A stretch of 64,000 bases of DNA from Candidatus Nanohalarchaeota archaeon. Lineage in GTDB: Archaea > Nanohalarchaeota > Nanosalinia > Nanosalinales > JAFCCC01. This document shows, piece by piece, positions 27,256 to 43,579 of this stretch. Every line of letters starts with the position of its first letter. Position 1 is the stretch's first letter. The stretch lies in NCBI GenBank assembly GCA_017610385.1, contig JAFCCC010000002.1, positions 62,001 to 126,000 of the forward strand. Reading direction: 5' to 3'. Both the position numbers and the translations under genes were made by a program. Below the pieces are notes generated by a model. The model was not told the origin of the DNA and made no database searches. It saw only the letters and a program-made list of their open reading frames with translations.

Positions 27256-28605
27256 TTACTCAGCCATTAACTGATCTAGGCTTTCTTTAAAAGAGGGATT
27301 TTTTAGTGAAATGTCTTGTGCAATAGCTCGCGCAATGTCTCTAATTTCCCATTGTGCGGCTGGTTTTAATCTATCACCCATAAATCCAGAAACAATATTC
27401 CATGCATTTAATTTTATCAAACTGCAGATTTCTGTTGCATGTGGTATAACGCCTATTGCTTCGCTTTTTGGGATTCCCGAACCCACCATTGCTTCATAAA
27501 GATCAAAAGATCTATTACACGTATCCTGAAATGCAGTAAAATATGAAGAGTTTCTTATTGTTTCTGGGACTACAATTTCACCTCTTTGAGCCGCTGAATA
27601 AATTGATTCATAAATCTGAGGAATAGTATCATGCCGTTCCAATTGATGTAGTGCATTTAAAGACATTTTTGCTACATAACCGGTTATATTCCCTACAGAA
27701 TTTGATAAACTTAACATAGCCTTTTTTGCTAAATCTTTACCTCTTGCAAATTCGATCATTTCAGAAGTTAAAGGAATACTGACTAAAATGGGTTTAGAAA
27801 GCGAAAGATTACTTAAATATTTGCTTAATTTATCATCTTCGGAAATAAATATATGCGCCATTCCTGGGAATTTTCCTTGCGCAATAAATGCTTCAACATT
27901 TTTGGGAGCATATAACGTTTCATATCTTTTTTCTAATTGCGTAAACGTTAGTTTTAAAGTTCGGGTTAATAATTCAGGAATCCAAGTATTGTCTTCTGGA
28001 TCATAAGCCGCTTTTAGACCTGTAAATGATGCAAAATTTCCGTGTCCGTGAAGATATTTAGCAGCGACTAGTAAAGGATGAATAAATCTAGCGTCCTCTC
28101 GTGGAATTTGGTTTGCTGAATGTGGCTCTGTCATTTGCATATATATCCCAAACGAATCTTGGAATAATTGCAAAACTTGATCTTCAAATTCTGTGCCACT
28201 AATTGCGGCAGGCATAAAATATTCTCCTGATCGATTCTCTTCACCAGATCGTGTATATCTTAGAGAAGTTTGTAAAAATTTAGTAAAATCATCAGCACAC
28301 AAACCTAAAGTAACTAATCTTGGAGCTACGACTTCAATTCCGTGTGGTGCTTGATAAAAAACAGAAGTATGTCCTCCTTCTGCGCATGCAAAGAACAATT
28401 TTTCAAGTACGGCTTTTCTTTCTTCACTAGAAATTCCTTTTAATTCTTTTTCATAAATTTCGTAAGGACCTAATTGAGAGCGGCTATATGCTGTACGTGC
28501 TGTACCAAATGTAATCTCTTCAACACCATAGTCGGGATTCTCTTGGTTTTGAGCGCCCCATCGTAAATTTGCTTCTGGTTCCCGAATTATAATTTCTCTT
28601 CCCAC
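27256..28605 (-). CDS. ThyX-like (FAD-dependent thymidylate synthase family), double-length
   Basis: A 449-residue protein about twice the usual ThyX length. Both halves show ThyX-like elements: FLQTSLRYTRSGEENRSGEY in the first, and ALHQLERHDTIPQIYESIYS in the second, the latter close to the RHR-x7-S flavin/dUMP motif. Ends such as LKPAAQWEIRDIARAIAQDI correspond to the substrate-binding C-terminus. ThyX makes dTMP from dUMP with methylene-THF and FAD. The motifs are degenerate, so a different uridine-modifying reaction is possible. Confidence 0.7.
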   Translation of the reverse strand: MGREIIIREPEANLRWGAQNQENPDYGVEEITFGTARTAYSRSQLGPYEIYEKELKGISSEERKAVLEKLFFACAEGGHTSVFYQAPHGIEVVAPRLVTLGLCADDFTKFLQTSLRYTRSGEENRSGEYFMPAAISGTEFEDQVLQLFQDSFGIYMQMTEPHSANQIPREDARFIHPLLVAAKYLHGHGNFASFTGLKAAYDPEDNTWIPELLTRTLKLTFTQLEKRYETLYAPKNVEAFIAQGKFPGMAHIFISEDDKLSKYLSNLSLSKPILVSIPLTSEMIEFARGKDLAKKAMLSLSNSVGNITGYVAKMSLNALHQLERHDTIPQIYESIYSAAQRGEIVVPETIRNSSYFTAFQDTCNRSFDLYEAMVGSGIPKSEAIGVIPHATEICSLIKLNAWNIVSGFMGDRLKPAAQWEIRDIARAIAQDISLKNPSFKESLDQLMAE

Positions 28606-30550: not shown

Positions 30551-31069
30551 CTATAAGAATCGTCGCTCAGAACTCGGAGATGAAGAAAAATCAGGTGAAA
30601 ATGGATTTATTCGTTCTGGTTCTTTTTCAGGCGGCGCTTTAAAAGAATTATCAGTGGAAACCTCTGCTGAATTCTTATTAGATTCTTTCATTTCTCTTAA
30701 TAAACTAATCATTTCTATATTTTGGTCTCGGATTTCCTTTAGAATTTCAACAATAGGATCATTTAATTTTGATTTTGGTGGTTCTGGTTTTGGTTGTATG
30801 GGTCTTTCAAATAAGGGTTTTTCAGAATCAGACAAATCTCTTATTTCTGGTTCAGGCTCTTTTTCCTTCTTAATCGGAGATTGTTGTGAACTGTATTTTT
30901 GTGCCTGTTGTTTAAGAAAATCAAGAGAAGTCGACGTTTTTGGTTCAATGTTTTCTGGGTTCTTTTTTTTATCTAACAAAGGATTTATTTTAGGATCCAT
31001 TTTAGGAATCACAGAATTATTCTCATGTTCTTTTCTAATTTCGTCTTTAATTGTGTCAAAAAATGTCAT
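30551..31069 (-). CDS. Coiled-coil/low-complexity protein, third of a paralogous trio
   Basis: About 172 residues from ATG 31069, which follows TTGGTGAAT. Most of the chain is Pro/Ser/Lys/Glu-rich and likely disordered. One short helix, VEILKEIRDQNIEMISLLRE, matches a helix in each of the two upstream genes. The protein ends SSERRFL, echoing EERRLW in the middle gene. It is the last gene of a tightly packed operon (2-nt gap). It is cytosolic with no enzymatic motif; an adaptor or scaffold role is a guess. Confidence 0.65.
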   Translation of the reverse strand: MTFFDTIKDEIRKEHENNSVIPKMDPKINPLLDKKKNPENIEPKTSTSLDFLKQQAQKYSSQQSPIKKEKEPEPEIRDLSDSEKPLFERPIQPKPEPPKSKLNDPIVEILKEIRDQNIEMISLLREMKESNKNSAEVSTDNSFKAPPEKEPERINPFSPDFSSSPSSERRFL

Positions 31070-31071
31070 AT

Positions 31072-31419
31072 TCACCAAAGTCTCCTTTCTTCAAAAGGTT
31101 TATCATAATACTGTGAACTTGATTTAGATTCCACTGAAGATGAAATCGGATTTTGTTTTTCTAAATCTCTCTTTTTTACTATTTCTTCAAGTAATCTTAT
31201 AATTCTTTCGTTTTGATCTAACATTCGATCAATTTTCGAAATTATAGAATATTGAGATTCAGAAGAATGAGGCTCCATTCCAGGCAAATTAAATAAAGTA
31301 TTCATTTTCTCAGAAGTATCTTGAATTTCAACTTCTTCGTTTGTATCTGAATCACTATAATGTTGAACTCCAGTAGGTTTAAGTTCAATCTCTGTTGGCT
31401 CTTGCTTTTTTCTAAACAT
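31072..31419 (-). CDS. Coiled-coil protein, second of a paralogous trio
   Basis: A 115-residue acidic, low-complexity protein. The shared helix is SKIDRMLDQNERIIRLLEEI, followed by a Ser-rich tail that ends EERRLW. Its ATG comes 1 nt after the stop of the first gene and its stop lies 2 nt before the start of the third, so the three are one operon. No homologue is recognised. Confidence 0.65.
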   Translation of the reverse strand: MFRKKQEPTEIELKPTGVQHYSDSDTNEEVEIQDTSEKMNTLFNLPGMEPHSSESQYSIISKIDRMLDQNERIIRLLEEIVKKRDLEKQNPISSSVESKSSSQYYDKPFEERRLW

Positions 31420-31420
31420 A

Positions 31421-31855
31421 CTATCGCCTCATTTTGTAATTTAAATTCATATTAATTTCTCTTAAAAGTTCGATTATTGTTTGATTTTGGGTTGTCATTA
31501 CATCTAGTTTAGCTGTTAAACGATCATTTTGTGAAACTTCAGGGGTTGTTGATCTCTCATATAATGATCTTGTCCTTTCACGATATTGCGGGTTTTCTTT
31601 TGCATATGAACTAAGTGCAGAAGGGGTGGATTGCATAGTCGACCTGCTTTGTAATATCTGAGAAGCATTCTTTTGCTCTCTTTGTGGTGAATTTTGAATA
31701 GTATTTGAATAATTTCTTTCTGGATATTTCAGAGTTTCTGAACTTGGTTGATTTATCTGGGATTTTTGTGAAAGATAATTTGACGAGGAATATTTTTGAG
31801 TGGTTTTTGTATTTTCTCCTTTCAAGAATTTTTTAAATTTACTAAAAAGCCCCAT
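31421..31855 (-). CDS. Coiled-coil protein, first of a paralogous trio
   Basis: About 144 residues from ATG 31855. An amphipathic basic N-terminus (MGLFSKFKKFLKGE) may contact membrane or another protein. A long Ser/Gln/Asn-rich middle follows, and then the shared helix KLDVMTTQNQTIIELLREIN near the end. The gene diverges from the large unknown gene at 32010, and a TATTTATAATAAAT box in the shared intergenic region is the likely promoter. Function unknown. Confidence 0.65.
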   Translation of the reverse strand: MGLFSKFKKFLKGENTKTTQKYSSSNYLSQKSQINQPSSETLKYPERNYSNTIQNSPQREQKNASQILQSRSTMQSTPSALSSYAKENPQYRERTRSLYERSTTPEVSQNDRLTAKLDVMTTQNQTIIELLREINMNLNYKMRR

Positions 31856-31939
31856 CACCACAACCTCTTATTTACTATAAACACAATATTTATTATAAAT
31901 ACCGTTTGTTATAAATACAAATAGTATATTGCTCCTATA

Positions 31940-32009: not shown

Positions 32010-33539
32010 GTGAAGGATTATTGTATGCATGGCTGTTATCCGGTTGATAGTACTTTTTTTGAAGGTTCTGGAATTGATGCTGAAAAATTTATTAAAAGCC
32101 TAAAGCTGGCTGAAGACATAAATAAAAAAGTTCTTGAAACCCTAAAGGAGCTTAAAATAACGCATATAGACGGTCTGTATTCTTATCGTGTTCTTATTAC
32201 TTTATTATCAGATGTGGTTGGCTCAGATGTTGGTGAAAGGATTTTAGATGAAATGGGAAGCACATTACACTATAAATCTGGCCTAGGAGAACCATATGTT
32301 GCAAAAGGAGATAGAACATTAGTTATTGGTGCTAAAAAACAAGGTAAGCCGATGGGCGCATATAGAACATTAGGTTCTCTGTTAGGTTTTCAATATGGAT
32401 ATCAAAGGCATAAAGTTAATGAATGGTTAAATGTAAGTCCAAGATCTCAATTTTACAATGAAATGATGGGTCGGAGAGGGGAGGCAGAACAACAAGTTAA
32501 TCGAGTTTTAGCAACGCTAAGTGATCTTTATCAACAGAAACACTTGTTAGAACATGATATTAGAAAATTAAATGAAAGGATTTCAAGTTTCAAAATATAT
32601 GACGAAAGTAAAGGGGAACGAGAAGAGGCGCTTAAAGCAGATTTTATTGATTTGGTGGATATTCAAACAGGAAGACATAGTTTGTTAACTATGCAGAGCG
32701 AAAATATTTTTCCAACTATTACTGCTGATTTTTATAGAATGAAAAAACCAGAGGATTTAAAAACTGGTGCTCCGATGGGAAATTTGCCTGAATCTGAAAA
32801 AGCCATGTTAAGAAAAAAATGGTATTTGTATGACAAATGGAAAAGTGAATACCAACAGGTGGTTGCTGGTAAAGTTAAGGATCTTGATATGCGATTAAAT
32901 TCAATTTTAACATCCATTAAACAGAATGAGGAAGGAATTAGACCATATGTCAGAACATTAGTAGAATTACGTGGTACATCTACGGAAGAGTTAGATCGTA
33001 TGACAGATCTTCAGATGATGCAAGGATATTCTTCAAGCTGGAGAGGTATGAAATTAGTATGCTACAAGGCCGTGCGTGAAAATCCGGGTGGAGGAGATTC
33101 TCATTATGATGTTTTGGTTGTTAATATAGATCATCTTACGCTTGCCAATACTGAACAGCCTGCAGCTCCTGGAGCTGGTGGTGCAGCATTGATTTTAAAA
33201 TTTAAAGAATATTTGGTTTGTAAACATGTTTTTGATTTAGCTTTTAAGCCACAAATTGATAATAAAAAGGGTGAAGTTGAAAAATTCATGGATTTATATA
33301 CGGGAAAATCACCATGGATAGATACAATTAAAAAATTAGAGCCACATTTAAAAACAGTTAAAGAATTTAAGAAATCTGCGAAACCCAGTAAATGGGCCTA
33401 CGCAATGGGAAAAGCAGATGGATTCTATGTTCGTTTAGAAGAATTAGATGATTTAAGAACGAAACTGGTTGGGCCACCACATATATCTCCTCTTTATCTA
33501 GATTTGAAATATGCAATAGGAATGTTTGTAACAAGCTAA
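32010..33539 (+). CDS. Large hypothetical cytosolic protein
   Basis: A 509-residue protein of unknown family. GTG is taken as the start because GAGGTGAG is ideally spaced before it. The N-terminal third includes VLITLLSDVVGSDVGERILD and a Gly-rich GAYRTLGSLLGFQYGYQRHK. The middle (about residues 150-320) is a long coiled coil with RRGEAEQQVNRVLATLSDLY. The C-terminal part is mixed alpha/beta (HYDVLVVNIDHLTLAN). No signal peptide. It is followed by two further large genes on the same strand with spacers of 93 and 63 nt, forming a probable functional set. Confidence 0.65.
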   Translation: MKDYCMHGCYPVDSTFFEGSGIDAEKFIKSLKLAEDINKKVLETLKELKITHIDGLYSYRVLITLLSDVVGSDVGERILDEMGSTLHYKSGLGEPYVAKGDRTLVIGAKKQGKPMGAYRTLGSLLGFQYGYQRHKVNEWLNVSPRSQFYNEMMGRRGEAEQQVNRVLATLSDLYQQKHLLEHDIRKLNERISSFKIYDESKGEREEALKADFIDLVDIQTGRHSLLTMQSENIFPTITADFYRMKKPEDLKTGAPMGNLPESEKAMLRKKWYLYDKWKSEYQQVVAGKVKDLDMRLNSILTSIKQNEEGIRPYVRTLVELRGTSTEELDRMTDLQMMQGYSSSWRGMKLVCYKAVRENPGGGDSHYDVLVVNIDHLTLANTEQPAAPGAGGAALILKFKEYLVCKHVFDLAFKPQIDNKKGEVEKFMDLYTGKSPWIDTIKKLEPHLKTVKEFKKSAKPSKWAYAMGKADGFYVRLEELDDLRTKLVGPPHISPLYLDLKYAIGMFVTS

Positions 33540-33632
33540 ATTGCAAATATAATGGGGGATTTTTTATGAGTTTGATTGAAATCATTTGATATTTCAGTTG
33601 CTTTTATAATTCACGGATGACAAGAATATTTT

Positions 33633-35669
33633 ATGGGCTCGGTTTTGGAACAATTTCGAGAATTTCTTAGAGGAGAGCATAAATCAAAGAGACTGTATCA
33701 TTATTTGGGTTGCTCATCTGGAGCTCCAGTTTCTGATAAGATACCTGTTTTATTGGGCAGACGAGCGGGGTGGGCCACGCGGCAAGGAGCCAATTTTATA
33801 GAATTGTTTACAGGACCGCCTTCTGAGTTGATTATGGAAAAAGAAGAATTAATTAATACTGCGGCCAGATTAGGCCTTAATTATTCTATTCATCCCTCTG
33901 AGCAATTGGGCTTAGATAGTTCTTATGTCATGGCGAGAAATGGATATTTAATTGCTCAAGAATATTTACGAAAAATCATAATTTATGCGGGATTATTAAA
34001 ATTGGGGTTAATCGAGCGATTTAAAAAAGAAAGATTAAATACAGATGAAGTTCTTACTTCAATTAATATTCACATTTCAAACAAGCCAATTCCACCTTTT
34101 GCTGAAAAATTGGCGGGGGATGTTTCTCTGGATCCATTTGGAAATGATATTAGAAAAGTACGATTGAAAAATGAAAAAGGAAAAGAGATTCCTCATCCGA
34201 TTTTCTCAAATAAGTTATTCAGAGAACGACTTTGGAAACACTATATTTTACCGAATGAGGATAAACTGATATTAGTAAGATTATTGGCTGAAAAAATAGC
34301 TAGAAAGCCCTTTGAAAAAATTTTTGAGAGCTATTTTAATAATCTTTTACAAAATCAACAATTTTCAGAAGACGAAGAAAAAAATAAAGAGATTATAAAA
34401 AAAGAAATGGCATTCCCATTTGATATACGATTTAAACGCCATACAAATTTACAAACGCCCGCAGTTGAACATACCATACAAGACAAAAACATGTTTAAGG
34501 CGGTGGAGAAATCGTTTATAGAAAAAATTGATGGGATAGAAATTTTATGGGGAGGTCGTGTTGAATGTTTGAATCCAGATAAAATTCTTCAAGAATCTTT
34601 TTTGTTTAGGGAACTTTTGCCGAGATGGATGCCACACGCAAAAGAAAAACCAATTAGAGATATTTGGGAAGGAATTGTTGGTAAAAAATATAATGGTTCT
34701 GAAAAGGATGTCACTCAAGCTGAAAAAAAGCTTATAAAACTTCGTGCAGCTGTCAGAGGAGAACAAAAAATTATAGCAGCTTCAGCAGGCGCATATACTT
34801 GGGGACATCTTACTCAATACACGGATTGGGCTCCGGGAGTTCCAGAGTATGATGGAAGCAATAAAAAAAAGCCTAAAAAGGCCACATTAGCTGAGCTTTT
34901 GGCACATTTTAAAATTCAAATTACCCTAGAGTGTCATATGTCGGGGGGGTTAGGAGAAACTATACGAATTTTTGCTCCAGAGGATGTTCTAGTTATTGCA
35001 AAAGCCGTAAATGAAACTAAAAGTCCATTAACAAAAAAAACATATGATATTGCAAGAATAACCATTGACATGGAACAGATTTCAACAATGGGTGTAGATC
35101 CTATTTGGATGATGAAAGGAGATAAAGCACAAGGATTCAAAGGATTATCCATTAAAAAACAAGATGGAAAATTCATTAGAGTGGTGCACGTCACACACCC
35201 CTATATTATGATGGGTGGTTCTGGACACCAACACGGACCAATAAGAAGAGGGGATACGCAGGTATTCAAATATCTTTACCTGATGAATGAAAGAGGAATG
35301 GGAAGTCGCGAAAATGAAAAAACAATTATAATGTATGAAATTGGAACTGAAAAAGCAGAATCTGTTTTTATGATAAGATTGATGATTGAAATGATTGAAG
35401 CAGGAATAACTCCAAAAGATTTAAAAGTTGAGAACATTCAAGAGTTAATGGATAAAGAACCACGAGATTTAAAGGAGAAACTGATTCAAGAATTCTTTGG
35501 ATTGAGTGAAGCTGAAATGAGACAAGAATGGGCACAAATTCAAGAGCATACTACAGACCCGTTAAAGGGGATGTTAGGATCTACAAAACCAGATCATACT
35601 TGGACTGGAAAAGCGGCACTAGATCGAAGAAATGCTCCAGAAGAATATAAAGGAGAACAATATAAGTAA
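33633..35669 (+). CDS. Large protein with AP-endonuclease-2-like TIM-barrel features
   Basis: A 678-residue cytosolic protein without a recognised full-length family. Several segments fit a xylose-isomerase/AP-endonuclease-2-type barrel in order: NFIELFTGPPSELI, LGLNYSIHPSEQLGLDS, ITLECHMSGGLGE, ARITIDMEQISTMGVDP, VVHVTHPYIMMGGSGHQHGP and IIMYEIGTEKAESVFMIRLM. The spaced Glu, Asp, His-x-His and final Glu could be metal ligands. Relatives include Nfo-type AP endonucleases and sugar isomerases. The first 80 and last 60 residues are unassigned. Family membership is inference from motif order. Confidence 0.6.
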   Translation: MGSVLEQFREFLRGEHKSKRLYHYLGCSSGAPVSDKIPVLLGRRAGWATRQGANFIELFTGPPSELIMEKEELINTAARLGLNYSIHPSEQLGLDSSYVMARNGYLIAQEYLRKIIIYAGLLKLGLIERFKKERLNTDEVLTSINIHISNKPIPPFAEKLAGDVSLDPFGNDIRKVRLKNEKGKEIPHPIFSNKLFRERLWKHYILPNEDKLILVRLLAEKIARKPFEKIFESYFNNLLQNQQFSEDEEKNKEIIKKEMAFPFDIRFKRHTNLQTPAVEHTIQDKNMFKAVEKSFIEKIDGIEILWGGRVECLNPDKILQESFLFRELLPRWMPHAKEKPIRDIWEGIVGKKYNGSEKDVTQAEKKLIKLRAAVRGEQKIIAASAGAYTWGHLTQYTDWAPGVPEYDGSNKKKPKKATLAELLAHFKIQITLECHMSGGLGETIRIFAPEDVLVIAKAVNETKSPLTKKTYDIARITIDMEQISTMGVDPIWMMKGDKAQGFKGLSIKKQDGKFIRVVHVTHPYIMMGGSGHQHGPIRRGDTQVFKYLYLMNERGMGSRENEKTIIMYEIGTEKAESVFMIRLMIEMIEAGITPKDLKVENIQELMDKEPRDLKEKLIQEFFGLSEAEMRQEWAQIQEHTTDPLKGMLGSTKPDHTWTGKAALDRRNAPEEYKGEQYK

Positions 35670-35732
35670 GATTGTTACTATGAAGTAGAAAACTATATAT
35701 ATCGTAAGAAACAATACACAGGTAGTGGAGAA

Positions 35733-36995
35733 ATGTCATCAAAAAAAACAACTAAAGCTAAAAAACCTGAAACACTTTCCTCAAAAACTGTTTTAAAAAA
35801 TGGTAAAATTGATTTTACAAAACTAGATAATTCTAAAGAAGCAAGACTTGCAAGTGTTGATAAATTTGCAAAAGAATTAGTCAAAAAGTTAGGTGATAAA
35901 GTAAAATGTGTTGTTGTATGGGGTTCTGTAATTCGAGGAGAACATACCCCGGAAAGTGATATTGATACGTTTGTTTTATTAGATGATACAAAATTAGCCG
36001 AAGATGTTCCTTTGGATGTCAAAGAAAAAATACGGTGGAAGGTTGCAGATTTAGCAAAAGAAATTGATCCTAGGATTACTTTACAATATTTTACGTTTTT
36101 AACAGAGTTTTGGGATGACATGCGACACGGAGAACCATTGGTTATTGATGTTCTAAGATGGGGTCATATTATTTATGATGTTGGAATTTTCGCTCCAGCT
36201 AAAAAATTATTAGAAAGAGGAAAGATTTCTTCTAGTAGAGAAGCTATTATGAGAAGATTGAGTATAGCCTCTTCTGGCTTTAAGCAATGCGATTATAGAT
36301 TAAAAAAATCTATTCCATTTCAATTAGAACAAATTATGGCAAATGCCGGTCAAGCACCAATAATGATTTTAGGAAGTATCCCTCCTGGAAAAGAAGCTAT
36401 TGGCAAAACATTAGATGAACTTTTTGTAAAAAGCAAAATGTTAGAAAAAGAATATGTGGATCTTGCTAATGATATTCATGAATTCGCGAACAAGGCAGAA
36501 AAAGGAAAAGTCAAAGTTACAGGAATGCTGCTTGAAGAATATATGAACAAAACAGATAAATTTATCAAGAGAATGTATGCGCTTGTTAGTCAATTAGGGA
36601 ATAGAAGGAAAGCACAAGATTTAATTGAAACTTACAAATTATTTTTGAAAATTAATGTTGCGGCGTTAAAATCAAAGGGAATTGATCCGCCAAAAAACAA
36701 AGAGGATTTACCTAAAATTATAAGAAACAATCTACAATTTAAGGAGTCTTATTTGAATTTATTTGGTCGCTGGGATGATTTAATGGAGAAAATAAAAGAG
36801 AAGAAACTGAAAGAAATTGATGGTAAAACTATTTATGAATTAAAGGGGGATACAAGAGCATTTATTTCTGAAATTGGCAAAGATTTACGGAAAGCTGGAG
36901 TGGGTGCATTTAAAAAGAGTGATACCAATTCAAATAAATTATCTGGTAAGGCAAAATCAACTAAAAAGAAGTTAAAGCCAGCGAAATCAAAATGA
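35733..36995 (+). CDS. Pol-beta-superfamily nucleotidyltransferase with helical C-terminus
   Basis: A 420-residue protein. After a Lys-rich N-terminus, residues about 65-160 form a nucleotidyltransferase domain: CVVVWGSVIRGEHTPESDID carries the GS motif and D-x-D pair, and RITLQYFTFLTEFWDD the strand with a third acidic position. The remaining 250 residues are helical, ending in a Lys/Ser-rich tail (KLSGKAKSTKKKLKPAKSK) likely to bind nucleic acid. Its position after the TIM-barrel-like gene (63-nt gap, with GGTAGTGGAGAA before the ATG) suggests joint action. Confidence 0.75.
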   Translation: MSSKKTTKAKKPETLSSKTVLKNGKIDFTKLDNSKEARLASVDKFAKELVKKLGDKVKCVVVWGSVIRGEHTPESDIDTFVLLDDTKLAEDVPLDVKEKIRWKVADLAKEIDPRITLQYFTFLTEFWDDMRHGEPLVIDVLRWGHIIYDVGIFAPAKKLLERGKISSSREAIMRRLSIASSGFKQCDYRLKKSIPFQLEQIMANAGQAPIMILGSIPPGKEAIGKTLDELFVKSKMLEKEYVDLANDIHEFANKAEKGKVKVTGMLLEEYMNKTDKFIKRMYALVSQLGNRRKAQDLIETYKLFLKINVAALKSKGIDPPKNKEDLPKIIRNNLQFKESYLNLFGRWDDLMEKIKEKKLKEIDGKTIYELKGDTRAFISEIGKDLRKAGVGAFKKSDTNSNKLSGKAKSTKKKLKPAKSK

Positions 36996-37030: not shown

Positions 37031-37618
37031 ATGTCTATGAGGATTATTCGTCATATAACGATTAATTTTATGAAGAAATTCAATTTTAAAAATAAATCTC
37101 TTCAAATTAGTTCATTTCTTGCAGGACTTGCAGTTATTGCGTTGATTATAGTTTTATTGTACTCATCAACACAAACTGAGGATGTATCGAAATTAATTCT
37201 TTCTAAAAATATAGAACCTTTTGAATTAGTGGATAATTCTACATTAAATACGGCTCTTTCTTCTAATATCATATCACAAGGTATTGAAGAAATTGGAACA
37301 GGTGTTTACAATGTTAATAATGCTTTCGCAGCATATTTACAAATAACTAAATTTAATAGTCAAGAAAATGCTAAGAAATATTTTTCTGAAAAGGTAACTT
37401 TTTGGAAAGAAAAGAGTCAGAAATATGAGCAAATGAGTTTTTCTCAGGTTAAAATGACCAATAAATTAGTTTTACAAGGAATCACGAAAGGAACAAAAAC
37501 ATCAACCTATGACTACGTTTGGAGAGATAGAATTTTTATTTACGAGGTATCTGGTAAAAAATTAGACGTAAATTATCCCTTAAAACTAAGTAAATTGCTT
37601 TGGGGTGATTTTCAATGA
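37031..37618 (+). CDS. Membrane-anchored protein, unknown function
   Basis: A 195-residue protein with one transmembrane helix (ISSFLAGLAVIALIIVLLY, about residues 33-51) and an outward domain of about 140 residues containing NAFAAYLQITKFNSQENAKK. An AATATATTTATTAG box about 25 nt before ATG 37031 supports a leaderless start; ATG 37070 is an alternative. It overlaps the VWA gene by 4 nt (ATGA), so the two are coupled. Confidence 0.65.
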   Translation: MSMRIIRHITINFMKKFNFKNKSLQISSFLAGLAVIALIIVLLYSSTQTEDVSKLILSKNIEPFELVDNSTLNTALSSNIISQGIEEIGTGVYNVNNAFAAYLQITKFNSQENAKKYFSEKVTFWKEKSQKYEQMSFSQVKMTNKLVLQGITKGTKTSTYDYVWRDRIFIYEVSGKKLDVNYPLKLSKLLWGDFQ

Positions 37619-39741
37619 AAGTATCAGCTTTAATGAACTTTTCAGCTTTGCTTTTACTTTGCCTTCTTGCAATTGTAAGTCTAAATCTTATTGAAAATGT
37701 ATTTGGTGCAGAGAGCTATATTACTCCCAATGGAAAATGGTTTAGTATGGACAATGTCGAATTTAAAATTGATATGGGCGGTTTGGACCCTGAAGATTAT
37801 GTTAATTATAGTTGTAACTATGAAATCATTGAAAATTCAGATGTTTGTCCTGAAAGTGAAACACAATTTATAGAATCATTGGGCAGCTCTGGAAATATAA
37901 CTTGTGACCCTGGTGCCCTATGCAATAAGGTAGTATGTTATTATTGTAAAGTTAATCGAACTAATAGAACCCGAATTCATGATCCAGAAAGCAATAAGCC
38001 GTGGAAATTCATCTGGTTTGTTGAAAATTGGACTGAAATCTACGGAATAAACAGAAGTGACCCTTTTATAATTAATATACCAAATGGCAGTATTGAGGTA
38101 ACTGTAAATAAAACATTAGAAGGAGAATTAATTCTTGGTGCGCCAGTTAATATTATTTTAACTGGGACTGTTAATTTTTTAACTCAAACGATTCCTGTCG
38201 ATGTTATGCTAATAATGGATAGGTCTGGTAGTATGTCCGGAGATAAAATAACACAATCAAAGACAGCAGCAATTATTTTTACCAATCAAATATTATCTAA
38301 AGATAGAATAGGACTAACTTCTTTTGCAAGTACTGCAACCCTAGAAGCAGGACTGACTACAAATAAAGATTTGGTAAAAACTAAAATTAATTCCTTGGTT
38401 GCTTCTGGTATGACTGCAATGGGTGATGGAATGTATGTCTCACTCAAGGAACTAGAAAATAATGCTCGTTCTGACGTACTAAAATTTGCTGTTCTATTAA
38501 CAGATGGGCATCATAATTCCGGCAGTAAAACACCTTTAGAAGAAGCACAATGGGCCAAAAATCTTAATATTTCTATATATACAATTGGATTAGGCGCGGG
38601 AGCAGATGAAAACCTATTGATTAAGATTGCTAGCGAAACCAATGGAAAATATTTCTTTTCTCCGACCGAAGAAGAATTAGGTAATATTTACCAGCAAGTT
38701 GCTCAAGATATTTATGCAAGAGCAAGTAACAATAAAATTTATGATTTTCTACCTCTTTCTGCTGAAGTAATAGATTCAGATGGCGGCACAGTTAATCAAA
38801 TTACCTTAAATGAAGAAACATATCGCATAATTGCTTGGAATCATGGTTTAATAACTCCCTTAACTCCTTTGCTTATTAATTATACTGTGGCTTTCCATGA
38901 GTTTGGAGAACAACAAATTTGCTTTGAAAATAAATCTGTTATTTCATACGCCGATGTTGATGGATCAAAACAATTCAAATATTTTCCATTGATTAATGGT
39001 TCTAAGACTGTACAAATACCATATATTGATCTTGCATTTTTAGACTTGGATGGCATAGTTAAAAAAGATTTAAGTTCTAATTTAAACTCTGTTATTTTAA
39101 ATAATGGAACTATTACGTCTATACCAACCAAAATTGCGTTTTATAATAAAAGTGCTTTGGGAAATAAGTTTGGAACAGTAGAAGTTTCTTCTTTGGTAGT
39201 AAATGCTTCAGATGAATTTACTTTTATCTGGAACATTCCAGACAATAATACCTTAAAATATGAAATTTATGGTGTTGTTGATCCTTATAATGAAATAGAA
39301 GAACCTAATGAAGATAATAACATACGAGAATTCATATTGTGGAATGATTGGACTCCACCACAAGTATTCTGTGATCAAGCATATGAACAAGAAGATGTTA
39401 ATTTGATTTTCTCTCCAAAAATCAAAGATGTGGGTGCTGGTGTTGGGCGTGTACGACTTTGTAAAGATGCTTATTGTAAAGAAGTGTTTTGCGAATATGA
39501 TGGAAATGAAACCAGTTCGTGTGTATATGCTGTTGATGAATGTACATTTGAGAATGTTGGATTTTGGATATTTGCATCAGATAAAGCATTAAATACTAAT
39601 TTAACGTATTGCGGGGATATTGAAGTTAAAAAATCACTTAATTGTGTGTGTTCTTACTCTACTGAATGTGATTCTGGTCTTTGTGAGGGGGGGCCAACAC
39701 TTTGTACAGAAAATCCCATACCACAACTATACTTTATATAA
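37615..39741 (+). CDS. Secreted VWA-domain protein with Cys-rich C-terminal module
   Basis: A 708-residue exported protein (signal peptide residues 1-30). Residues about 195-375 form a von Willebrand factor A domain with an intact metal site: DVMLIMDRSGSMSG (DxSxS), a conserved Thr in ASGMTAMGDGMY and FAVLLTDGHHNSG. Beta-sandwich regions with VDPYNEIEEPNEDNNIREF follow. The last 120 residues form a Cys-rich module ending with CTENPIPQLYFI, shared with the protein at 41531-43579. VWA domains bind protein ligands through Mg, so this is a candidate surface adhesion or assembly factor. Confidence 0.82.
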   Translation: MKVSALMNFSALLLLCLLAIVSLNLIENVFGAESYITPNGKWFSMDNVEFKIDMGGLDPEDYVNYSCNYEIIENSDVCPESETQFIESLGSSGNITCDPGALCNKVVCYYCKVNRTNRTRIHDPESNKPWKFIWFVENWTEIYGINRSDPFIINIPNGSIEVTVNKTLEGELILGAPVNIILTGTVNFLTQTIPVDVMLIMDRSGSMSGDKITQSKTAAIIFTNQILSKDRIGLTSFASTATLEAGLTTNKDLVKTKINSLVASGMTAMGDGMYVSLKELENNARSDVLKFAVLLTDGHHNSGSKTPLEEAQWAKNLNISIYTIGLGAGADENLLIKIASETNGKYFFSPTEEELGNIYQQVAQDIYARASNNKIYDFLPLSAEVIDSDGGTVNQITLNEETYRIIAWNHGLITPLTPLLINYTVAFHEFGEQQICFENKSVISYADVDGSKQFKYFPLINGSKTVQIPYIDLAFLDLDGIVKKDLSSNLNSVILNNGTITSIPTKIAFYNKSALGNKFGTVEVSSLVVNASDEFTFIWNIPDNNTLKYEIYGVVDPYNEIEEPNEDNNIREFILWNDWTPPQVFCDQAYEQEDVNLIFSPKIKDVGAGVGRVRLCKDAYCKEVFCEYDGNETSSCVYAVDECTFENVGFWIFASDKALNTNLTYCGDIEVKKSLNCVCSYSTECDSGLCEGGPTLCTENPIPQLYFI

Positions 39742-39926
39742 AAAATAGAATATTTAACTCATTTAACTCATTTTAGAAGACAATATTTCTTTTAGAATAT
39801 AATGTGGGCTTGTGGTTACTGTAAACATAATTATTTGATAGTATGTCTATCTTATTTGATAATACATCTCTCTTTTTTCAAAACAGAGTAGTAAACTATA
39901 TTTATCAACAAAATCTAAATTAGGTT

Positions 39927-41534
39927 ATGAGAGAACATTTAATACTTTTATTAGTATTTTTTCTAATTGTTGGTGGAACTGTTTCTGCAGAGGAGAATAT
40001 ATTTTATAACGGAGGAATGAAAATCGAAACACAAAAAATACATTATCTTCCGGGAGAGTCTTTTGAGGGGAGTGCAATCCTATTTAATGAAGAAAATTTT
40101 CCATTAATTAGTGCATATTTGATAGTAGTTCTTCAGGAAGGATGTGAAAAACCCACTTATCCTACACAATTCTCAGATTGCGATAATATTTTTTTAGAAG
40201 ATAAAATTGAAAATATAAATTTGGGTGCAAATTCACAAAAAAGAATTGATTTTTCTTACAAATTGCCAGAAAATCTCAAACAAGGAGTTTATCGGGCGGA
40301 TTTCTATTTTAAAACAAATAGAACGCCAATAGTAGGTCTTCCATTTATTTTAAGTGGAAGCAATTATGTGAGCTTTACAATAGATGGATCCGCGCAATTC
40401 CCTTCTGTAAAAATACTAAGAACCAAAACGTATTTTAAAGGAGTAGAACGTGAATTGGGCGTTTGGAAGAATGATTCGGAATACCCTAAGTGGCCCTGGA
40501 GTGCAGGACCAGTTGGAATTCCAGTAGAATCACAAATTATTGGAAATGTTAGTATTCAAAATGAGATTTCAACCGCAACAGACAACTTAGAGCTTCTTGT
40601 TTCTGTTTATGGGTGGGATGACACCTCGTCTGAGTTAATCTCTTCAAAAAAATATAACTTTTCACTTAATCCCTCAGAACAAAAAATCATCCCAGTAGAA
40701 TTAAATGCTCCAGAAAAAGCAGGAGCATATACCATTAGATTAGAAGTTCTGCAAGACAATCAGAAACTTTCTGTTTATAAAACAAGGGTAATTGTTATTG
40801 GAGAAACTGCGAGAATAAGAAAACTTTATGTGAATAAACCTTATTTTAAGGAAAATGATGCGCTTCAAATTAATATGCTAGTTGGTACTTCGCCAGATCA
40901 TTATACAAAACCTACAATGAAGGATTTAACTGCTTCTGTAGAAGTAATAGATTTATCTACTGGTGCTCTGGTTCTTCGGAGCTCTAAAAAAATCAGTGAA
41001 CTATCTTCGGAAAACAAATTAATTTTGGTAAATTTCACAAAGAAACTCAAAAAACAATTAAGCAATTTTAAGGTTACTGGAAAAATCGTTTCTTCAAAAA
41101 AGGAAGTTTATGATGTGTATGAAATCGTAGTGAATTCTGAAAATTTCGTTTCAGGTGTGGATAATATAACAGTCGCTTTGGAAAATTATGACTCTGAAAC
41201 CAGAAATTTAACTATAAAAATCTGTACTTTTAACAAAGATCAAATACCGGTAAGTACAGAGATTCAAGCAATTTTGCGGGATGACTTGAATATCATAAAG
41301 AATCAAAAACTAAGCTGTTCTCCTTGTACATATCTAAATTTCATTGCAGAAAAACAGAATTACACATTATTTGTAAGTGCAAATAAACAACAATTTAATT
41401 TTCCAATTAGTGTACCAGAGAACTCAATTTCAACAAATGATAAAGAATCTTCAAGTTTGATTTGGGGATTAATTGGTGGGGCGGCAATTATTGTTTTAAT
41501 AAGTTTGTTCTTGCTTTGGAGAGGGAAAAAATGA
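39927..41534 (+). CDS. Surface protein with beta-sandwich domains and C-terminal anchor
   Basis: A 535-residue protein with a signal peptide (residues 1-21), several Ig-like or CARDB-type beta-sandwich segments (YLPGESFEGSAILFNEENFP; AGAYTIRLEVLQDNQKL) and a C-terminal helix (IWGLIGGAAIIVLISLFLLW) followed by RGKK. It should display its bulk outside the cell. The stop overlaps the next start in an ATGA, coupling it to the Cys-rich protein. A TATATTTATC box lies about 30 nt before the ATG. Confidence 0.72.
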   Translation: MREHLILLLVFFLIVGGTVSAEENIFYNGGMKIETQKIHYLPGESFEGSAILFNEENFPLISAYLIVVLQEGCEKPTYPTQFSDCDNIFLEDKIENINLGANSQKRIDFSYKLPENLKQGVYRADFYFKTNRTPIVGLPFILSGSNYVSFTIDGSAQFPSVKILRTKTYFKGVERELGVWKNDSEYPKWPWSAGPVGIPVESQIIGNVSIQNEISTATDNLELLVSVYGWDDTSSELISSKKYNFSLNPSEQKIIPVELNAPEKAGAYTIRLEVLQDNQKLSVYKTRVIVIGETARIRKLYVNKPYFKENDALQINMLVGTSPDHYTKPTMKDLTASVEVIDLSTGALVLRSSKKISELSSENKLILVNFTKKLKKQLSNFKVTGKIVSSKKEVYDVYEIVVNSENFVSGVDNITVALENYDSETRNLTIKICTFNKDQIPVSTEIQAILRDDLNIIKNQKLSCSPCTYLNFIAEKQNYTLFVSANKQQFNFPISVPENSISTNDKESSSLIWGLIGGAAIIVLISLFLLWRGKK

Positions 41535-43579
41535 AAACGTATGTGAACAGTAGGTTGTTGGTTTTTTTAATAATACTAGTTGCTATCTTCGTTGTAAAAA
41601 CTCCTTTTTCAGTTGCTAATGCTTGCGCTCCAGAACATGATTATAAAGCGTGTTCTTCTGGTGATCTCTATTGGTATGATGCATGCGGGATCAGAAATGA
41701 TCTCGCGGAATCTTGTGGTAGTGATTCGTGTGGTTCTTGGGGTTCAAATTATTGTAAATACGGAGATGTTTATCACAAAAGAACTTGTTATGATCGCGGA
41801 TGTAGTAGTGGATCCTGCTATAGTAATTCTTACACGGACGAAGATTTGGTAGAAGAATGTTATTCGAGTGAAGCTTGCATAGATGGAAAGTGTTATGTTG
41901 GGTCTGAATTCAGTTTTGTAGTAACTGTTGACGAATCTTACCCGAATTCAGCCATTCCAATTAAAGTGGCGAGCAATGTTTGGTTGGGTTCCTCTGTTGA
42001 CTTTGATTTTACATTAAATGATATTGATATTTCGAATAGAGTAGATGATGGCATTTGTACTGTTGAGGGGGATGAAGGGTGGTATATTTTAAATGTGGGA
42101 GATACGTGTGAAACCCGTGTTCCAGACAACATAGTGCCAGGAACCTATGTTTTAAAAGCAGAATGGGATTTCTTAGGTCATCATGAAAAAATATTAGATT
42201 CTGCTTTTGAGATTAAAGCAGGATATATTTGGTCTACAACAGAAAGCACTCACGGAGGTTATATAGATGGTAGCGTACTCTACAACAAAGGATTCAGTCA
42301 AAATTATGTTTTAGAAGATAATAAATATTTTACTTGCCCAGGAAATTCATTAAATATTCAATTAACAGGGACCGTCGTGACAGAATGTTCTAATGGTGCT
42401 ACATCGTCTTCAATTCCTGCATCAATAGCGTGGGTATATGAAGGAGCAACAAAAATAGGGACAAAAAATAATAATATGTTTAACGGGTGCTGTAAGATTC
42501 ATGAGGGAATAACTCGATCTGAAATCTTATTAACTCCAAAAGGATATAGACCAGAAGATTCTGGCTGCTCTTGTGATCTGGGATGGACTTTTGGTGGTTC
42601 AAGTTCTTGGCAAGCCGCCACATTTAACAATAAAGGAAATTATGCGGTTTATTTAGATTATATTGGCGCGATGTCAGACGCACCAGCAGATTTTATTTGT
42701 CCAAAGGGCGGGGCGTATTGTACTACCAACTGGGGACATAAACCTTCAGAATATTATAATTTGGCAAATTTGGAAGTTTTAGATGTTTCTGTAATTGATT
42801 TAGCAGCAGAGTTAACTGAGAATGTTCTTAACGCCGAATGGAATGGCAGTTTATGGAAATTAAACGCGAATTTTGTGGGAGATTCAATTGAGAATACATT
42901 TTTAATTGAATATTCTGTTAAAAATGTCGGTATAGGTTCTATAGAACTTACCGGAGGCAATGCACTATGTTCTGAAGAAATGAATTGTTCTGTGATTACG
43001 CCATTACCTTTAGTTGTAAAAGAAGGGGCATCTGCTACAATTTTAGTTAGTACAGATATGCCTATTAAAATTGGATTAAAAGAATTAAATTTTACAACGG
43101 AATATCAAAACGCGTATGGATTTAGTTGTGAGGTTGGAAAACACATTTCAAAGAACATCCAATTTGAATGGAAAGATGATATTCCACCGGTAATTAATTG
43201 TGAAACAGAAGATAAAAAGGGGATAACAAGCATTTTATTTAATCCAGACGTATATGATCCAGATCCGTCTTTTGGGTTTTTAGGCATTGATGTGTGTTTG
43301 GATGGAATATGCAAACAGATCGGGTGTTCAAATACCTCTACTATATGTGAAACACCTATTTCTGACTTGGAACTTGGTTGCATTTATTTGAATAAAGAAT
43401 ACTGGATTAGAGCAACGGACATTATGGGAAATTCAGACATTAAAAAGTGTGGAAATATTGAAATGAAAAAAGATTTGGATTGTATTTGTTCATACGATTC
43501 TGAATGCAATTCAGGATTGTGCGATGGAATTCCGCAAGTGTGTATGGAAAATCCAAAACCAGAAATGTACTTTATCTAA
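41531..43579 (+). CDS. Secreted Cys-rich protein sharing its C-terminal module with the VWA protein
   Basis: About 682 residues from ATG 41531 (overlapping the preceding TGA). A signal peptide (LLVFLIILVAIFVVKTPFSV) precedes a very Cys-rich N-terminal region (about residues 35-130, with SCGSDSCGSWGSNYCKYGD) that should be disulfide-bonded. Beta-rich domains follow. The C-terminal 120 residues parallel the VWA protein: an opening PPxxxC, a CICSYDSECNSGLCDG motif and a terminal CMENPKPEMYFI. No transmembrane anchor follows, so retention probably depends on the anchored partner. Confidence 0.75.
   Translation: MKTYVNSRLLVFLIILVAIFVVKTPFSVANACAPEHDYKACSSGDLYWYDACGIRNDLAESCGSDSCGSWGSNYCKYGDVYHKRTCYDRGCSSGSCYSNSYTDEDLVEECYSSEACIDGKCYVGSEFSFVVTVDESYPNSAIPIKVASNVWLGSSVDFDFTLNDIDISNRVDDGICTVEGDEGWYILNVGDTCETRVPDNIVPGTYVLKAEWDFLGHHEKILDSAFEIKAGYIWSTTESTHGGYIDGSVLYNKGFSQNYVLEDNKYFTCPGNSLNIQLTGTVVTECSNGATSSSIPASIAWVYEGATKIGTKNNNMFNGCCKIHEGITRSEILLTPKGYRPEDSGCSCDLGWTFGGSSSWQAATFNNKGNYAVYLDYIGAMSDAPADFICPKGGAYCTTNWGHKPSEYYNLANLEVLDVSVIDLAAELTENVLNAEWNGSLWKLNANFVGDSIENTFLIEYSVKNVGIGSIELTGGNALCSEEMNCSVITPLPLVVKEGASATILVSTDMPIKIGLKELNFTTEYQNAYGFSCEVGKHISKNIQFEWKDDIPPVINCETEDKKGITSILFNPDVYDPDPSFGFLGIDVCLDGICKQIGCSNTSTICETPISDLELGCIYLNKEYWIRATDIMGNSDIKKCGNIEMKKDLDCICSYDSECNSGLCDGIPQVCMENPKPEMYFI

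Follow-up and report, generated by a model that had tools for sequence, protein, structure and literature searches.

A conserved three-gene module of small-genome archaea coding for a predicted AP_endonuc_2-type barrel protein and a minimal nucleotidyltransferase

Locus organisation and conservation of the three genes

The window, by which we mean the whole 64,000-nucleotide stretch of DNA that was analysed, belongs to a 0.79 Mb genome of Nanohalarchaeota (DPANN) assembled in 18 contigs. Three open reading frames (ORFs), hereafter A, B and C, make up the locus:

32010..33539, plus strand: gene A, ORF of 509 aa with a GTG start
33633..35669, plus strand: gene B, ORF of 678 aa
35733..36995, plus strand: gene C, ORF of 420 aa

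All three were recovered in the co-directional arrangement described in an earlier note on this DNA, and homologues of each occur in the same order and on the same strand across the archaea, which is why they must be regarded as far more than chance ORFs. Pfam and NCBIfam searches with A, B and C recognised C alone.

The note had proposed to follow the co-occurrence of the three genes across genomes. Of 394 archaeal genomes sampled and searched with E limits of 1e-3 for A and B and 1e-20 for C, 94 had A, 63 had B and 93 had C, while 294 had none of the three. The joint presence was strong: A and C were found together in 87 genomes, A and B in 61, and B and C in 59. The association persisted outside the phylum of the window (Fisher P values from 8e-26 to 8e-58, which ignore shared ancestry).

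Within this phylum, A lies directly 5' of B at each locus with both genes on the contig, and C follows downstream of the A–B pair, at times with one or a few intervening genes. The flanking genes differ between families of the phylum, which means that the triad does not sit within an extended block of synteny. Outside the phylum (about 32 loci), A preceded B on the same strand, immediately or almost so, in 17 cases, and C was close downstream, likewise in 17. The two genes A and B are usually closely spaced, with a gap of 12 nt or less at 35 of 41 loci; the window, with 93 nt, is an exception. Some lineages carry a tandem pair of C genes, and in several genomes B or A stands apart from the rest (for example L102/L103, L175 and L193).

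The B-positive genomes were all 1.4 Mb or smaller. A few genomes positive for A or C exceed this size (2.1 and 3.8 Mb), so these two genes may extend beyond DPANN. A search of genome contigs for related loci with B alone returned none; loci were found with the alignment of C, and the named matches obtained in this way were nearly all Nanohalarchaeota, with one Aenigmatarchaeota record and records labelled "DPANN group archaeon" in addition. The order A>B>C could well represent an ancient operon, seen so far mainly in small-genome (DPANN-type) archaea; we hold this tentatively, jointly with the whole of the explanation developed below.

DPANN archaea have few genes and depend on hosts. Since B is present in 26 of the 28 genomes of the window's phylum (the two B-less ones being 75% and 78% complete), and since a second phylum has C in 138 of its 156 genomes (38 of the 39 of good quality), the A–B–C operon probably serves something basic.

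Fold and metal-ligand residues of the B protein

From ordered motifs, B had been likened to AP-endonuclease-2/xylose-isomerase barrels, with a structure prediction and a comparison with Nfo and xylose isomerase suggested as the check. The AlphaFold2 model of B, built from 23 sequences (mean pLDDT 74.4, pTM 0.76), is indeed a TIM barrel, with eight strands in barrel order at residues 23–28, 55–60, 83–88, 141–147, 429–433, 474–479, 515–520 and 564–569. Between strands 4 and 5 the barrel is interrupted by some 275 residues (approximately 150–425) that form a helical insertion of poor model quality. In VIA-align the model scored Z 20.4 with D-tagatose 3-epimerase, 19.5 with IolI, 18.9 with E. coli Endo IV (1qtw; 263 residues, 3.5 Å) and 17.7 with xylose isomerase, and L-ribulose 3-epimerase was also among the top fold matches. 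As far as the model goes, these values are too close to pick between an epimerase, Endo IV and xylose isomerase by fold.

Window B matched no Pfam model and had no useful match in the PDB by sequence or profile. Distant members of its family, L101, L190 and L183, exceeded the PF01261 cut-off of 31.1 bits, and E values of 9e-17, 1.3e-8 and 5.4e-8 were obtained on distant members. Moreover, hhalign of B with the insertion cut out against an archaeal Nfo profile gave an E value of 6e-6 with the ligand columns aligned. With the eight predicted strands, the range of Z from 17.7 to 20.4 and the PF01261 scores of the distant members, the assignment to AP-endonuclease-2/xylose-isomerase-like barrels holds.

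The Glu/Asp/His motifs suggested as potential metal ligands in the earlier note lie at the ends of predicted barrel strands and proved conserved: H87, H147, E433, D479, H519, H534 and E569 are invariant in 56–57 B proteins. Neither outcome that the note had named as refuting, a fold other than the TIM barrel or unconserved motif residues in homologues, was observed. The candidate residues are given below with their equivalents in the E. coli Endo IV numbering (H69, H109, E145, D179, H182, H216 and H231):

33891..33893, plus strand: codon of H87, end of strand 3; aligns with Endo IV H69; 56/56
34071..34073, plus strand: codon of H147, end of strand 4; aligns with Endo IV H109; 56/56
34806..34808, plus strand: codon of H392, in a family-specific G-H motif closing the insertion; 52/57, invariant in alignment A6
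34929..34931, plus strand: codon of E433, end of strand 5; corresponds to Endo IV E145; 57/57
35067..35078, plus strand: D479-M-E-Q482, end of strand 6; corresponds to Endo IV D179-x-x-H182; D in 57/57
35187..35189, plus strand: codon of H519, end of strand 7; corresponds to Endo IV H216; 57/57
35232..35234, plus strand: codon of H534, loop after strand 7; corresponds to Endo IV H231; 57/57
35337..35339, plus strand: codon of E569, end of strand 8; corresponds to Endo IV E261 by strand order; 57/57

The core superfamily ligands E-D-H-E on strands 5–8 (E433, D479, H519 and E569) are thus found in 57 of 57 B proteins. Position 482 is H in 54 of 57 proteins and Q in three, among them the window protein and its nearest relative; other relatives read D-x-E-H. 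Residue 532, at the position of Endo IV D229, is variable (H in 25, G in 14, T in 10 and P in 4 of 57). When further archaeal PF01261 proteins were aligned with Nfo as a control, they mostly had the same ligand letters, so this pattern by itself is not diagnostic of Endo IV among PF01261 proteins. Read as a sequence pattern, the candidate ligand set of B argues for the metal site of the superfamily, not for DNA repair.

The three-metal site of Endo IV has nine ligands in the order H, H, E, D, H, H, D, H, E, as described for a relative (PMC13113976). B resembles Endo IV in being a TIM barrel with the H69, H109, E145, D179, H216, H231 and E261 positions occupied, and with the H182 position kept in 54 of 57 proteins. 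At the family level this amounts to eight of the nine ligands, the D229 position being the variable one; window B also has Q in place of H182. Endo IV probes DNA with a minor-groove element, Tyr72-Leu73, located three residues after H69. B, in contrast, has no Tyr-Leu after H87, where the residues are PSEQLG, SDPNIG, FPVQTA and similar, not xxYL. It is also more than twice as long and has the insertion and a C-terminal extension, and the NCBIfam nfo model TIGR00587 did not match the window protein, L101 or L190 (control: canonical Nfo L203 scored 5e-81). Since B fails on the model, the ninth ligand, the Tyr-Leu element and the length, it was not filed as Endo IV. Proteins with PF01261 were encoded in 56 of 60 relatives, mostly at sites other than B, and the one that was typed is the canonical Nfo L203; the window genome, too, has another PF01261 protein (L267) besides B. 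By these sequence features, B is a new subfamily of AP_endonuc_2 (PF01261) and not Endo IV.

Other members of the superfamily were weighed in the same way. CbiR is an AP_endonuc_2 cobamide phosphodiesterase with a non-nucleic-acid substrate (PMC7733943), so the substrate range of the superfamily is not only DNA. One distant B had the CbiR model NF041277 as its top NCBIfam match (6e-9), but with 35.8 bits against a cut-off of 105 and with a different architecture, and no cobamide genes were noticed adjoining the A–B–C module. The ketose 3-epimerases and IolI, the top VIA-align folds (Z 19–20), have the E-D-H-E core in common with B; the latter differs from them by the extra invariant His residues at positions matching Endo IV ligands and by the large insertion.

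This bears on a reading in which the operon belongs to a small-molecule pathway, B being a sugar or sugar-phosphate isomerase/epimerase and C nucleotidylating a small molecule. We consider it improbable. The fold ranking, with D-tagatose 3-epimerases (Z 20.4) and L-ribulose 3-epimerase at the top and the former about 1.5 above Endo IV, would agree with it, as would the kanamycin nucleotidyltransferase (NTase) as the nearest solved relative of C, and the E-D-H-E core, common to the whole AP_endonuc_2 superfamily, would fit as well. However, H87, H147 and H534 are extra invariant residues of B equivalent to Endo IV ligands, a pathway enzyme would have no obvious need of 275 inserted helical residues and of a coiled-coil partner, and the neighbours common to several lineages are non-metabolic. 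As part of our overall explanation, which as a whole we put at somewhat below an even chance, B is tentatively predicted to be a metallo-phosphoesterase.

Several genomes with both A and C had no match to the B profile. Among 18 A-positive loci inspected, many encode a protein of 570–735 aa (B') between or beside A and C. The B' proteins L233, L250 and L242 matched PF01261 with E values of 1e-13, 1.8e-18 and 3.5e-17, above the 31.1-bit cut-off, and conserved residues of B' are H110, H157, E459, D513-x-x-H516, H566 and H577 (L233 numbering). Some lineages encode a further coiled-coil protein, charged and 187–242 aa long, between A and B'. In the genomes with A and C but without a B match, the predicted barrel has diverged to the point where it is detected solely by PF01261 or by weak profile scores.

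The nucleotidyltransferase C

The pol-beta-type GS...D-x-D motif that had been noticed in C is real and is kept in all aligned members:

35922..35966, plus strand: catalytic motif of C, G64-S65...S75-D76-I-D78

C exceeded the cut-off of Pfam NTP_transf_2 (PF01909) with 36.9 bits against 21 (E 4.9e-9), and NTP_transf_2 and Polbeta matched 24 of 24 members of the family. In the PDB, the best match of the C profile was the kanamycin NTase (E 3e-7), and weak matches were obtained with the minimal NTases PADLOC PDC-S09/M05A and NCBIfam MntA. The Lys-rich tail mentioned in the earlier note is present in the window genome but is peculiar to it and not a trait of the family, most relatives having an acidic one. 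By its sequence, C is a minimal (MNT)/kanamycin-type NTase with a putatively helical C-terminal part and a predicted catalytic motif that is intact. It shares with the kanamycin and minimal NTases of PF01909 the GS...DxD motif, the NTP_transf_2 score and the best PDB match; it differs in being longer, in a putatively helical C-terminal region not shared with them and in being tied to A and B in one operon, where it is sometimes duplicated.

The assignment of C to DNA polymerase family X was rejected: none of the models for this family (palm, thumb, HhH) was among the matches of C, one outlier member having an HhH match only, and C groups with the minimal/kanamycin-type NTases. This affects the suggestion in the earlier note of a base-excision repair unit, which was not borne out, given this grouping, the lack of a conserved D229, of Tyr72-Leu73 and of an nfo match in B, and the PF01261/Nfo proteins encoded elsewhere in relatives. 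For B taken alone, such a repair role would be conceivable in principle, and RNA-end processing, which the note had offered as the alternative, may still apply. A general unit of nucleic-acid end processing or repair, in which B would cleave abasic or 3'-blocked ends and C would add nucleotides, appears rather unlikely as well. Its attraction is that the B ligands equal those of Endo IV at eight of nine positions at the family level and that C carries a pol-beta fold motif. Nevertheless, the D229 position and the Tyr-Leu element after H87 fail it on the side of B, and the type of C, without family X matches, on the other; nearly all relatives have PF01261 proteins elsewhere, one of them confirmed as canonical Nfo.

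A DPANN-specific MNT-HEPN family, cls.004259, has been described as widely kept and found in a house-keeping context (Makarova et al., 2019; PMC6393860). By this description it is, like C, a DPANN-restricted and widely kept NTase and may be identical with C; the passages on this family that were consulted have no mention of the A–B–C operon or of a barrel partner. The existence of this family, possibly including C, and the weak matches of C to PADLOC PDC-S09/M05A and MntA would be compatible with C being an NTase of the toxin-antitoxin type, MNT(-HEPN), and the operon a defence or addiction module. Such a role is very improbable: unlike patchy defence genes, those of the module are near-universal within phyla, no match was found in phage records searched with C or in viral contigs searched with B, and none of the 25 families listed for C was a HEPN model.

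Gene A, the proposed function and the neighbouring small proteins

The description of A as unrecognised still holds in that no Pfam, NCBIfam or confident PDB match was obtained, yet A belongs to a strongly conserved family, in which D217, F241, L267, K270 and W277 are conserved in 46 of 46 proteins. Its AlphaFold2 model, of low confidence (mean pLDDT 64), consists of a beta-alpha-beta unit (99–142), a long coiled-coil hairpin (147–320) and a three-stranded sheet with a helix (343–431). Foldseek gave no confident structural match to A, the best E value being 0.075. A is presumed to be a coiled-coil scaffold.

Our preferred, still tentative explanation, given slightly less than an even chance, is that A, B and C form one functional unit in which C and B act on a common substrate, as writer and eraser or in successive steps, with A as the scaffold. 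The enzyme classes in this two-enzyme unit rest on sequence and structural evidence; we infer the number of metals, the substrate, the coupling and the role of A. B would bind two or three metal ions and hydrolyse a phosphodiester, C would transfer a nucleotidyl group to a hydroxyl, and A, as a coiled-coil protein, would scaffold both. On the shared substrate, which would be an RNA or DNA end or a protein of the A–B–C locus, C would add and B remove a phosphodiester-linked nucleotide.

A more far-reaching version, which we regard as doubtful, takes the triad as the core of a new essential machine characteristic of DPANN and unseen in other life, that is, a scaffolded cycle of nucleotidyl transfer and phosphodiester hydrolysis with accessory disordered and membrane proteins, possibly connected with the handling of nucleic acids from the host or with a protein modified by a nucleotide. 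On either version, the operon joins a new subfamily of predicted metalloenzymes, whose metal-ligand cluster is Endo IV-like, to a dedicated NTase. Part of the DPANN "dark matter" thereby becomes testable biochemistry, the question being which phosphodiester is made and broken. A literature search, covering mainly open-access main texts and so weak as negative evidence, did not find a description of the triad.

Small proteins are encoded next to the module in the window:

30551..31861, minus strand: three small ORFs in divergent orientation (175, 115 and 146 aa), each made up of a low-complexity linker followed by a coiled coil at the C-terminus, L..I..QN..II.LL.EI

By composition and motif, similar short low-complexity coiled-coil genes adjoin the module in many relatives and are usually divergent. 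The three ORFs are possible accessory proteins, judging by these sequence features. An identification of the small coiled-coil neighbours as FlaC or ArlX was rejected because it had below-cut-off scores alone to offer. Homology of A to a 170-aa paralogous pair, which has a similar predicted topology, was also rejected (hhalign E 0.2).

These neighbours could alternatively be parts of a structural or membrane-associated assembly, built of the disordered coiled-coil and small membrane proteins, with B and C as regulatory subunits. The many loci with short coiled-coil ORFs beside the module, and the distant lineages with the 170-aa pair and a DUF308-like membrane protein, lend themselves to this arrangement. 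It is nonetheless distinctly unlikely, as the parts are assigned from composition and position alone, the FlaC and ArlX scores stay below the cut-off, and A has no homology to the pair. In the distant lineages, the members of the pair are related proteins of 160–200 aa and, with the small DUF308-like membrane protein, recur beside A or B.

Variation within the module

The nucleotidyltransferase gene C is present as an adjacent pair in the module loci L173, L174, L182, L188, L191, L192 and L198 of other archaeal genomes, where a copy of about 263-301 aa is followed by one of 361-417 aa, and the GS...DxD motif is mostly retained in the shorter copy. L233-L242, L249 and L250 make up a second branch, in which the module has diverged very far; some of its genomes encode an additional charged coiled-coil protein of 187-242 aa between the coiled-coil gene A and the barrel gene.

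Neighbours of the module in distant lineages

Two kinds of small proteins accompany the module in distant lineages:

L190:4758-5780, L192:4557-5605, L182:4160-5207 and comparable positions: proteins of 160-200 aa, related to one another, family unassigned
L190:5906-6241, L175:6295-6627: membrane protein of small size (about 110 aa), directly 5' of A

The former are found in 23 of the distant loci, mostly as two tandem genes that diverge from A or adjoin the barrel gene B, and a Pfam search with them gave nothing above cut-off. The latter lies immediately upstream of A in several lineages, and the one member tested matched DUF308 above cut-off.

Neighbouring genes in the window

27256-28605 (-): ThyX-related protein, 449 aa, two Thy1 stretches
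30551-31861 (-): three neighbouring small ORFs, low-complexity linkers and a common C-terminal motif
37615-43579 (+): series of secreted-looking proteins, 3' of the module

The C-terminal motif of the small ORFs is L..I..QN..II.LL.EI, and in many relatives the module is adjoined by ORFs that appear, from their composition, to match these three. The ThyX-related protein is about twice as long as the thyX model and scores below its equivalog cut-off. Among the secreted-looking proteins, one has a VWA domain and two have in common a Cys-rich C-terminal segment, CxCSYxxECxSGLC.
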